From Tissierellia bacterium (GTDB taxonomy: Bacteria > Bacillota > Clostridia > Tissierellales > Tissierellaceae), in contig JAAYHU010000070.1 of the NCBI GenBank assembly GCA_012735245.1, positions 1-40,014 on the forward strand: DNA of 40,014 nt, read 5' to 3'. Within the stretch, counting starts at the first letter, position 1, and the number at the start of each line of letters is the position of its first letter. Both the position numbers and the translations under genes were made by a program. Below the pieces are notes generated by a model. It saw only the letters and a list, made by a program, of their open reading frames with translations, searched no databases and was not told the origin of the DNA. Shown here in pieces: positions 26,103-29,611 of this stretch.

Positions 26103-26627
26103 ATGGATGGAAATGAAAGAAGAGAAAAAATACTCCATATCCTTGAAAAGGCCCAAGACCCCATTAAGGGAACAGACTTAGCTGAAAGATTAGAAGTAAG
26201 CAGGCAAGTAATAGTACAGGATATTGCCCTATTAAGAGCCAAGGGAAAGAATATTCTTGCCACCCCTAGGGGTTATATATTGCCTAAATCCTATGAAAAG
26301 AGTAAGCTGATAAAGACCATAGTTTGCGTCCATGAAAGCATTGAAGACTTAGAGGAAGAATTGAGAATAATAGTCGATTTAGGGGGGAAGATAATAGATG
26401 TAATAGTGGAGCATCCACTATACGGGGAAATAAAATCACAACTACAAATAGGTTCTAGATACGATTTAAAATTATTCATGGATGAATTTAGAAAAACTAA
26501 GGCAGAACCCCTATCCTCCTTAACAGGAGGTGTACATCTCCATACAATAGAAGTAGAAGATGAAGAAAGCTTTTTAAGAATAAAAAAGGAACTATCAAAG
26601 AAAAGACTATTGATAGAAGAAGACTAA
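26103..26627 (+). CDS. niaR: Niacin-responsive repressor NiaR
   Basis: 174 residues. The N-terminal HTH_11 winged helix (1-60) contains TDLAERLEVSRQVIVQDIALLR. The C-terminal 3H domain carries its conserved histidines in DVIVEHPLYGEI and GGVHLHTIE, which bind a metal with nicotinate. NiaR represses NAD synthesis and niacin-uptake genes when niacin is present. It sits after the helicase-loader gene with AAAGGA upstream and no clear own promoter. The next gene, an EIIC-like membrane protein, has a possible NiaR operator in its upstream region. Confidence 0.9.
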   Translation: MDGNERREKILHILEKAQDPIKGTDLAERLEVSRQVIVQDIALLRAKGKNILATPRGYILPKSYEKSKLIKTIVCVHESIEDLEEELRIIVDLGGKIIDVIVEHPLYGEIKSQLQIGSRYDLKLFMDEFRKTKAEPLSSLTGGVHLHTIEVEDEESFLRIKKELSKKRLLIEED

Positions 26628-26667: not shown

Positions 26668-26694
26668 TTACACTTTTGTTGAGGAGTGATTCTT

Positions 26695-27717
26695 GTGTCA
26701 AAATCTAAGGGTGGTATTAGAAATTATCTTGTAAAAATACTAAATGGTATGGCCTTAGGCTTATTTTCATCCTTATTAATAGGGCTTATAATCAGACAGA
26801 TAGGCAGTTTGTTTGATATAGGTTTCCTTGTTACTTTTGGAAATATTGCTCAAAAACTAATGGGGCCTGCCATAGGGGCAGGAGTAGCTTACAGTGTAGG
26901 AGCCCCACCTTTGGGCATATTTGCATCTGTAGTAGTAGGGGCAATTGGGGCAGGCAGCATCAGCTTTGATGGTGCAACTGCAATTATAAATACAGGAGAA
27001 CCTGTAGGAGCCTTTGTTTCTGCCTTAATTGCAGCTGAGTTTTCAAAACTAATTAGTGGAAAAACAAAGGTGGATATAGTATTGGTGCCTTTTAGTGCAA
27101 TCCTGGTAGGTGGCTTAGTGGGGACCTATATAGGCCCCTATATGGTTATGATAATGAATTTCTTTGGAGGTATAATCAATAGGGCTACAGAGCTACATCC
27201 AATACCTATGGGAATAATAGTATCTGTAGTCATGGGAATAGTCCTTACCCTGCCTATTAGCTCGGCGGCCCTAGCCATATCCTTAGGCTTATCTGGATTG
27301 GCAGCTGGAGCCAGTACAGTTGGATGTGCAGCCAATATGATTGGATTTGCAGTTGCCTCCTTTAGGGAAAATGGAATAGGAGGTTTTATAGCCCAAGGCA
27401 TAGGGACCTCCATGCTTCAAATGCCCAATATTATAAAAAATCCCCTAATTTGGATTCCTGCCATAGTTGCATCTGCCATTTTAGGGCCAATTTCCACTAG
27501 GATTTTTCAAATGGAGGGTACTCCCATGGGGGCAGGTATGGGTACCAGTGGCTTAGTAGGCCAGTTTGCTACCATAGATGCAATGGGGGCAAGCCCTAGG
27601 ACCTTAATCTTAATCTTATTAATGCATTTTATCCTACCGGGTTTAATTTCCTTTATTGTATCTGAATGGATGAGAAAGAAGGGATTAATAAAACCAGGGG
27701 ATATGAAATTAAGCTAG
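26695..27717 (+). CDS. EIIC-like membrane protein (PTS_EIIC_2 family)
   Basis: 340 residues, nearly all hydrophobic, with about nine or ten membrane segments rich in glycine and alanine. The N-terminal KILNGMALGLFSSLLIGLII and the later GAPPLGIFASVVVGAIGAG and GMGTSGLVGQF segments match the EIIC_2-type family of putative sugar transporters. No EIIA or EIIB gene is nearby, so it may not be a true phosphotransferase component. Its position after niaR and the candidate operator at 26651 suggest a NAD-precursor transporter, which is inference only. The GTG at 26695 has GAGGAG 8 bases upstream. Confidence 0.75.
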   Translation: MSKSKGGIRNYLVKILNGMALGLFSSLLIGLIIRQIGSLFDIGFLVTFGNIAQKLMGPAIGAGVAYSVGAPPLGIFASVVVGAIGAGSISFDGATAIINTGEPVGAFVSALIAAEFSKLISGKTKVDIVLVPFSAILVGGLVGTYIGPYMVMIMNFFGGIINRATELHPIPMGIIVSVVMGIVLTLPISSAALAISLGLSGLAAGASTVGCAANMIGFAVASFRENGIGGFIAQGIGTSMLQMPNIIKNPLIWIPAIVASAILGPISTRIFQMEGTPMGAGMGTSGLVGQFATIDAMGASPRTLILILLMHFILPGLISFIVSEWMRKKGLIKPGDMKLS

Positions 27718-27736
27718 ATTTCTAAAAGTTAATGTT

Positions 27737-27765
27737 TTGACAAGTGTTTCCGTGGTATATATAGT
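27737..27765 (+). promoter_or_regulatory. Strong promoter in the intergenic region
   Basis: TTGACA (27737-27742) and TATAGT (27760-27765), spacer 17. There is no coding region downstream of it before the terminator at 27850. Confidence 0.75.
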
Positions 27766-27767
27766 CT

Positions 27768-27905
27768 GGGAGGACAAGCTCCCATACAAAAGATGAAGAA
27801 GATTTAGAAACTAAAGATGAGATGAAGTATTTAAGGAACAAAAGATGAGAAATAGCAATTAGAAAAGCCAAGAACCTTAGCTTTTCTAATTGCTATTTTA
27901 CTTTT
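27768..27905 (+). ncRNA. Candidate small RNA, about 135 nucleotides
   Basis: Between the promoter at 27737 and a strong terminator lies a stretch with no usable open frame. A 5-bp GGGAG/CTCCC hairpin (27768-27772 with 27779-27783) sits at the predicted 5' end. It is followed by about 65 mostly purine bases containing three copies of AAAGATGA (27788, 27813 and 27841), then the terminator stem. This is the layout of an independently transcribed small RNA with a single-stranded core. I do not match it to 6S, SRP or RNase P RNA. It could also be the 3' end of the upstream mRNA. Confidence 0.5.
27850..27899 (+). terminator. Strong intrinsic terminator
   Basis: A perfect 19-bp stem (27850-27868 with 27880-27898), extended by AAG/CTT inside the loop and followed by T-rich sequence. 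It serves the candidate small RNA and the EIIC-like gene. Confidence 0.9.
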
Positions 27906-27909
27906 TCCC

Positions 27910-27937
27910 TTGACAATATCTCCCATTTTGCTATAAT
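27910..27937 (+). promoter_or_regulatory. Promoter of the serS T-box transcript
   Basis: TTGACA (27910-27915) and TATAAT (27932-27937) with a 16-base spacer, directly upstream of the T-box leader. Confidence 0.8.
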
Positions 27938-27944
27938 ATCCTTA

Positions 27945-28136
27945 ATTAAATACTAGGCAATGAAGGGACATAGTAAATATGGAGCTTTTATAGAGAGCCA
28001 ATGGATGGTGGAAATTGGTAAAGCGAAGTATTGAATCCATCCCAGAGCCTTTTACAATTAGAGTGAGCCTTTGGGCTAACTAGGGTGGCAACGCGGGAAA
28101 TACTCTCGTCCCTAACTTTGGGATGAGAGTTTTTTT
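27945..28136 (+). ncRNA. T-box leader of serS (serine)
   Basis: Stem I has AGTA (27972-27975) on one side of the specifier loop and GAA (28033-28035) on the other, closed below by GGGA/TCCC (27965-27968 with 28040-28043). The triplet after GAA is TCC (28036-28038), a serine codon, as expected for serS. The antiterminator bulge is GGTGGCAACGCGG (28084-28096). Its TGGC pairs with a tRNA ending GCCA, and tRNA-Ser has discriminator G. The terminator is ACTCTC-GTCCC with GGGAT-GAGAGT (28102-28130) plus seven Ts. Uncharged tRNA-Ser would favour read-through into serS. Confidence 0.88.
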
Positions 28137-28138
28137 AT

Positions 28139-28320
28139 AGTGTATAGCTAATATAGTGATTAGTGAATAGCTAATAACTAATAATGAATAGTTGATATAA
28201 GATGGCTTGTTAAAAGTAATTTTCATACAGTAAGACCAATGGCGGTTTTCTCTCAAGATTATTCGTTATCATTTAGAATCTCTAGTTATTCACTATTCAC
28301 TATTGACTATTAACTAATAT
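28139..28320. repeat. Inverted-repeat element between T-box and serS
   Basis: The left end (28161-28180, TAGTGAATAGCTAATAACTA) is an imperfect reverse complement of the right end (28283-28302, TAGTTATTCACTATTCACTA). Further TAGTGA/TCACTA/TTAACTA units lie outside and about 100 bases without a long open frame lie inside. The ends share the ATAGTGAATAG unit of the element at 23276. It is not part of the T-box and leaves serS with an unusually long spacer after the terminator. Confidence 0.5.
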
Positions 28321-28327
28321 AAATTAG

Positions 28328-29610
<1,283 letters not shown>

Positions 29611-29611
<1 letters not shown>

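Follow-up and report, generated by a model that had tools for sequence, protein, structure and literature searches.

An intergenic element between a PTS gene and the serS leader

The stretch of DNA analysed here (hereafter the window) is 40,014 nucleotides long and comes from a draft genome of 2.1 Mb in 184 contigs that is 87% complete (G000 below). On its plus strand, a gene for a NiaR-like 3H-domain regulator (26103-26627; PF02829 and PF08279) precedes a gene for a PTS_EIIC_2 membrane protein (26686-27717; PF13303), and serS follows at 28340-29611. A T-box leader of serS, identified by its match to RF00230, occupies 27951-28116 of the same strand. Between the PTS_EIIC_2 gene and this leader, which is a separate neighbour lying outside it, is the element under study (27734-27906).

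The element opens on the plus strand with a sigma-B-like promoter (27734-27759), in which a -35 box GTTTTG (27734-27739) and a -10 box TGGTATA (27753-27759) are separated by a 13-nt spacer, and from which transcription is predicted to start at about 27766-27768. The initial annotation had instead named a sigma-A-type promoter, TTGACA-17-TATAGT. This match is present at 27737-27765 and agrees with the consensus at 11 of 12 positions, but it is specific to the window's genus and overlaps the conserved sigma-B-like promoter. At the predicted 5' end of the RNA lies the hairpin GGGAG-GACAAG-CTCCC (27768-27783), as had been described, and its C-rich stretch CTCCC (27779-27783) is a candidate seed for pairing with Shine-Dalgarno sequences.

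Downstream of the hairpin, copies of a motif occur at 27786-27796 (ACAAAAGATGA), 27810-27820 (ACTAAAGATGA) and 27838-27848 (ACAAAAGATGA again, adjoining the terminator stem). The three copies of the word AAAGATGA reported earlier are found at 27789, 27813 and 27841, and three within 60 bases form a cluster, in a window where the word is common (13 copies versus 3.1 expected). The number three does not extend to the 11 relatives described below, each of which has two motif copies: the middle copy belongs to an extra unit present only in the window's genome, which makes the element 28 bases longer than its relatives.

The element ends in a putative intrinsic terminator (27850-27906), whose stem (27850-27898) folds with about 20 pairs and is followed by a T-rich tail. 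While the terminator stem of the initial annotation therefore folds as described, a terminator scan left it unlisted on the plus strand and flagged the minus strand only, so that the evidence for a plus-strand terminator is the fold together with the tail TTTTACTTTTT; on this strand the stem has one C-A mismatch and the T run is broken by AC. Folding of 27770-27903 gave a z-score of -5.2 relative to shuffled sequences, mostly due to the terminator stem. In agreement with the earlier statement that the unit lacks an open frame, the longest ATG frame read in the core has 8 codons.

Relatives of the element are found in two families of the order

Homologues were sought by several routes; in all, 12 of 249 genomes in the order are known to carry the element: nine of 28 in family f1 and three of 20 in family f6. 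When 27690-27950 was compared by blastn with 60 genomes, its own included, strong matches were obtained in two genomes of the window's genus (G001 and G002) and partial ones in G010, G020, G005, G025 and G014. A covariance model (R1) was built from these seven relatives, leaving out the window and the promoter. Among the 28 genomes of the family, R1 recovered the window with 67 bits and, with 61 bits, a further locus in G003; in the window the match starts at 27791, inside the first motif copy, because of the extra unit, and the true 5' hairpin is not aligned. Reading of 16 weaker loci in the family led us to accept only that of G003; one downstream of hcp in G010 (L144) was set aside as an independent case of motif and terminator, and a weak R1 match of G000 on contig C81 fell in sequence without such an RNA.

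The element of Clostridium sp. Cult3, counted as G240 and lying at about 1515-1660 of L234, was spotted by reading the region upstream of serS, and a search for the two-motif pattern added G242 and G243. As the latter two were chosen by the motif pattern, motif conservation there is partly a product of selection and its figure is inflated; in f1, loci came from whole-sequence similarity or R1 and not from this pattern. The promoter formed part of neither R1 nor the two-motif pattern used to find loci. A combined pattern of -10 box, motif, spacing and motif matched 11 of the 249 genomes, in every case at a true element locus, compared with two matches for its reversed control; G002 is one base off this pattern, hence missed by it, and was included through blastn and R1.

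At an E value of 0.02, R1 reported 19 of the 249 genomes. Nine of these are the f1 loci and the match in G242 is real, while the other nine genomes (loci L190-L192 and L194-L200) were judged on reading to be chance matches, mostly to terminators; at this threshold R1 missed G240 and G243. A modified pattern, whose reversed control gave three matches and which more divergent relatives would escape, revealed no further element in a class-wide set of 391 genomes, 372 of which lie outside the order. It matched G000, G005 and three others, of which the one in G388 lies inside a coding frame and is not the element. Those in G386 and G618 were first read as having the architecture of the element and were then rejected, since what lies there is a ACAAAAGA-like array flanked by mraZ and rsmH, and the GGTATA falls within the last part of mraZ. 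In these arrays (L282 of G386, about 1501-1830; L281 of G618, minus strand), roughly ten ACAAAAGA-like copies follow one another and no frame is conserved, which is an observation in its own right; no match to Hfq was found in either genome, both of which belong to another family.

The initial annotation had recognised no known RNA family, and the scans agree: at gathering score, Rfam 15 returned only the T-box for the whole window, the element and 13 related loci (T-box matches in the window and in seven of the 13). Sub-threshold matches of the element (E up to 10) were mostly to miRNA models and some sRNA models, almost wholly on the long hairpin.

A sigma-B-like promoter is conserved at all loci

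All 12 loci carry (G/A)TTWKR-N13-(G/T)GGTATA, with a spacer of exactly 13 nt whose sequence varies freely. The -10 box reads GGGTATA in nine loci and TGGTATA in the three of the window's genus. By comparison, the sigma-A-type TATAGT is confined to the window; G001 and G002 have TATAGG, and the nine other loci lack it.

To place this promoter, it was compared with published SigB consensuses. For B. subtilis, the consensus in the excerpted source is GTTTAA-N15(+/-2)-GGGTAT (PMC9847131). Its -10 box GGGTAT is matched exactly in nine of the 12 loci and with one mismatch in three, and the -35 boxes differ from GTTTAA at one to three positions; the window has two mismatches in the -35 box and one in the -10 box (others, 1-3 and 0-1). 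With its -10 box written as (G/T)GGTAWA, and in this form only, the C. difficile SigB consensus is matched by eight of the 12 loci. As printed in the excerpt of PMC7494833, that consensus is WGWTT-N13-17-(G/T)GGTWA, which none of the 12 loci matches; it was also looked for in PMC11481553 and is not printed there. Because of this comparison we have slightly lowered our confidence in sigma-B-type control of the element, which, as inferred from the promoter, we still hold to be somewhat more probable than not.

The window's genome encodes a candidate factor. Behind gyrA, G000 has a SigB-like gene together with rsbV- and rsbW-like genes, and it also encodes SigF and SigG. The SigB-like gene scores above the cut-off of the SigB/F/G subfamily and below that of the SigB equivalog (201.5 of 315 bits), and the RsbW-like gene below the RsbW equivalog cut-off (86.7 of 145). 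Three genes of the SigB/F/G family above cut-off are present in 11 of the 12 carriers, and two in G002 (84% complete); genomes lacking the element also have SigB-family genes. As a yardstick, the region before the sigB operon of G000 was searched for a sigma-B-like promoter; none was found, and the operon shows a sigma-A-like one. Together with the additional SigF and SigG and the wider occurrence of SigB-family genes, this counts against sigma-B-type control. In the window, both kinds of polymerase may act at the overlapping promoters, and in its genus the sigma-A-type promoter may add basal transcription.

Among the 28 genomes, GTTTWA-N12-15-GGGTATA occurs 85 times versus 50 for the reversed control (1.7-fold); five of the 85 are the element, and none is in G000. 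We read 30 of these loci. Single ones precede hpf (G027), a Usp gene (G008) and a DnaJ-type gene (G004), all in genomes without the element, and others lie before a DUF302-like gene (just under the Pfam cut-off) in G001 and G002; no clear stress gene was seen at the remaining loci read. Separately, loci in G022, G011, G015 and G007 (L258, L262, L272 and L273) share GTTTAA-N12-GGGTATAATAT followed by about 300 bases with no long open frame and no Rfam match. Their similar starts suggest another RNA with a sigma-B-like promoter.

Two motif copies dominate the conservation of the predicted RNA

The most conserved sequence behind the promoter is the motif ACAAAAGAYRA, which the 11 relatives carry in two copies 22-24 nt apart. 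Across the 12 loci, mean pairwise identity is 0.86 for the first copies and 0.92 for the last, compared with 0.39, 0.53 and 0.46 for the flanks (the first of these being the 11 nt before the first copy) and 0.33 expected by chance at this composition. Between f1 and f6 the contrast is sharper, with 0.86 and 0.89 for the copies and 0.22, 0.49 and 0.22 for the flanks. In structure predictions the first copy is mostly unpaired (0.57-0.97). The last copy is able to pair with the terminator tail, with unpaired probabilities of 0.27-0.53 in seven of the 12 loci (G002 was folded on a shortened piece), and its conservation may partly reflect this pairing.

The flanking hairpins are kept in shape while their sequences change. 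The 5' hairpin has five or six pairs with differing stem sequences in all nine f1 loci, with two-sided changes at three of five pairs (by reading only), and is longer in f6. The terminator stem likewise differs in sequence between relatives with its pairing kept. In all 12 loci, reading showed a C-rich stretch, for example CUCCC, CCUCC or CUUCC, that stops 0-5 nt short of the first motif copy. It forms the 3' arm of the hairpin in f1, where its predicted unpaired probability is 0.00-0.34, and lies behind the hairpin in f6 (0.47-0.85). The initial annotation had stated that its reading would fall if relatives failed to keep the promoter, repeats and terminator; this was looked at, and the reading stands.

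Motif pairs with similar spacing occur in other noncoding sequence

Matches to AAAGAYRA-N6-34-ACAAAAGAYRA across the order were re-read in their context, giving 128 pairs. A spacing of 22-25 nt was found for 12 of 20 noncoding pairs versus nine of 108 pairs in open frames of at least 70 codons. Without the known element loci, five of 12 noncoding pairs fall in this bin (p = 0.005), although the numbers are small and the bin was chosen after sight of the known loci and an earlier spacing count. This shared preference hints at a common protein-binding module. Three of the five adjoin a terminator, namely those behind hcp in G010, a rubrerythrin-like gene in G228 and a response-regulator-like gene in G025 (the latter two genes named by reading their translations only), and the other two (L232 in G025 and L390 in G247) lie in spacers before genes. 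One may imagine that ACAAAAGAYRA, in pairs with a spacing of 22-25 nt that frequently precede a terminator, works as a portable module in RNA and is recognised by a dedicated RNA-binding protein, which would tie together the element sRNA, a second conserved RNA (described next) and the 3' ends behind hcp and the rubrerythrin-like gene. We regard this as an improbable proposal, and as one worth testing despite the small numbers.

Several of these loci may be described individually. Behind the response-regulator-like gene, a second conserved intergenic stretch recurs in G001 (L237, contig C227), G002 (L238, C39) and G025 (L233, C23), with GGACARATGTACCTA, GGACAAAATTC and then ACAAAAGATGA followed by a terminator-like hairpin. 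Two copies 22 nt apart precede a terminator-like hairpin behind the hydroxylamine reductase gene hcp (L185, about 1920-2000; G010, C1), as do two copies 25 nt apart behind the rubrerythrin-like gene (L242, about 1600-1720; G228, C20). In G025 (L232, about 1517-1650; C1), two exact and further near copies occupy the spacer between SDR-like and transporter-like genes, both named by reading only.

A possible stress-induced regulator of translation

Taking these features together, this intergenic stretch of an uncultured anaerobic bacterium is most likely a small regulatory RNA gene kept in related species. We consider it likely that this gene specifies an independent non-coding RNA, about 100-135 nt long. 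The best explanation of the whole, to which we assign a probability of roughly 0.55, is a trans-acting sRNA under a SigB-like factor, with A-rich Hfq sites and a C-rich seed. Under stress, a SigB-like factor would be released by a system of the RsbV-RsbW-SigB kind and the RNA would be made; its A-rich motif copies would be bound by Hfq or some other RNA-binding protein; and, as in Staphylococcus aureus RsaA, translation of target mRNAs would be lowered by pairing of the C-rich stretch with their Shine-Dalgarno sequences. The combination of Hfq binding with a C-rich seed is the tentative part of this proposal, and we would put it at clearly less than even odds. The position of the C-rich stretch within the hairpin stem in f1 and the potential pairing of the last motif copy with the terminator tail count against the proposal.

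The initial annotation had offered pairing of AAAGATGA with TCATCTTT-type targets or binding of a protein. At the 38 gene starts of the window, duplexes with the motif segment were no better than with shuffled sequence (mean -9.06 versus -10.21 kcal/mol, sd 0.87), and those with the C-rich segment hardly better (-9.49 versus -8.73 kcal/mol, sd 0.85). By this measure the motif makes a poor anti-ribosome-site sequence and the C-rich segment an uncertain one; of the two options, putative protein binding by the motif fits better than TCATCTTT-type pairing.

Hfq, which all 12 carriers encode, is a candidate. Hfq-binding small RNAs of the ChiX kind carry A-rich sites for the distal face, and the element resembles them in its A-rich stretch upstream of a terminator. 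The distal face of Gram-positive Hfq takes adenine-linker repeats, according to the excerpt of PMC5379935, and ACAAAAGA, as a candidate site, fits this (A-L)n rule only partly. Alternatively, the RNA might be a decoy or sponge, with no mRNA targets of its own, whose A-rich copies would sequester either pyrimidine-rich small RNAs or a protein that binds RNA. Such a role would suit a motif conserved in both sequence and spacing, the 22-25 nt clustering of noncoding pairs in the order and the occurrence of the motif before terminators of other transcripts. However, two or three sites per RNA are few for titration and the C-rich stretch is conserved too, and we consider a sponge unlikely.

The trans-acting sRNA that we favour has parallels among described RNAs. 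The excerpt of PMC3961350 describes RsaA of S. aureus as a small RNA that depends on SigB and acts on a Shine-Dalgarno sequence, and by that description the element is like it in being a small RNA with a C-rich stretch and, as inferred here from the promoter, alternative sigma control. It differs in that no Rfam family matches it at gathering score, that its conservation is dominated by the two ACAAAAGAYRA copies and that it belongs to another bacterial class. In Clostridioides difficile, promoters probably recognised by SigB have been predicted before a few ncRNAs (excerpt of PMC7438776). The element shares with these a clostridial-type host, the sequences being compared by Rfam scans only, and differs in that it was seen in just two families, both belonging to the order of the window. 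Among the matches listed in our literature searches there was no paper on small RNAs of Tissierella-like clostridia, and no title on this RNA under the motif letters, CsfG and sporulation sRNAs, or SigB-dependent sRNAs. Through a conserved RNA whose promoter is of a stress-sigma-like type, the SigB-like system of Tissierella-like clostridia would be linked to post-transcriptional control. The simple bipartite motif of this RNA would also offer a handle on the function of Hfq or another RNA-binding protein in Gram-positive anaerobes, where the matchmaker role of Hfq is called poorly defined in the excerpt of PMC13350326.

The element is kept when its neighbours change

A more conservative reading is that the element is only the 3' UTR and terminator of the PTS_EIIC_2 operon, without a promoter of its own. 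The PTS gene does lie directly 5' in 11 of the 12 loci, and no plus-strand terminator is listed between its stop at 27717 and the element. In G003, however, a MarR gene and the dihydrolipoyl dehydrogenase gene lpd separate the PTS gene from the element by about 2.8 kb, and it is lpd that precedes the element, so attachment to the 3' UTR of one mRNA is not constant. We consider a mere operon tail less likely still than a sponge because the fixed-spacer promoter, for which an mRNA tail has no need, is kept in 12 of 12 loci. On the other side, serS is directly 3' of the element in eight of the 12 loci, begins 3.9 kb away in G020 and was not found in the downstream stretch examined in G014 (about 2.7 kb), G025 (about 3.5 kb) and G242 (about 1.6 kb). 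The unit remains whole when either neighbour is exchanged, as would be expected of a gene in its own right. That promoter, hairpin, motifs and terminator are all kept across 12 genomes despite such exchanges supports the independent transcription unit that had been proposed.

Small RNAs of type I that overlap a 3' UTR have their own promoter. The element resembles them in its position in the tail of a protein gene, whose terminator it probably shares; this terminator probably also stops read-through from the PTS operon. The element differs from them in not being bound to one mRNA, as the gene in front of it in G003 shows.

The remaining explanations concern single parts of the element. The last copy (ACAAAAGATRA) could be the T-rich tail of a bidirectional terminator serving transcripts of the other strand, since the minus-strand stem is followed by TTTCTCATCTTTTGT, the scan flags that strand only, and in several relatives pairing of the last copy with the plus-strand tail is possible. 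We regard this as very unlikely: conservation is about as strong in the first copy, which lies 22-24 nt away, no minus-strand ORF of at least 80 codons reaches the element, and the promoter and 5' hairpin are left unexplained. A small mRNA for a short peptide, suggested by ATG codons within the window's AAAGATGA copies, is scarcely credible given the 8-codon limit on frames read there and the lack of a conserved frame, relatives having GATAA or GACAA copies without ATG. Least credible of all is a part of the serS regulatory leader (an attenuator or upstream T-box part), as serS with a T-box follows in eight of the 12 loci but was not found adjacent in the other four, and the T-box has a promoter match of its own, TTGACA-16-TATAAT (27910-27937, plus strand), behind the element's terminator.

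Finally, the spacer of 200 bases between the T-box terminator and serS (28120-28340) contains near-repeats around TAGTGAATAGCTAATAACTAAT, seen by eye only.
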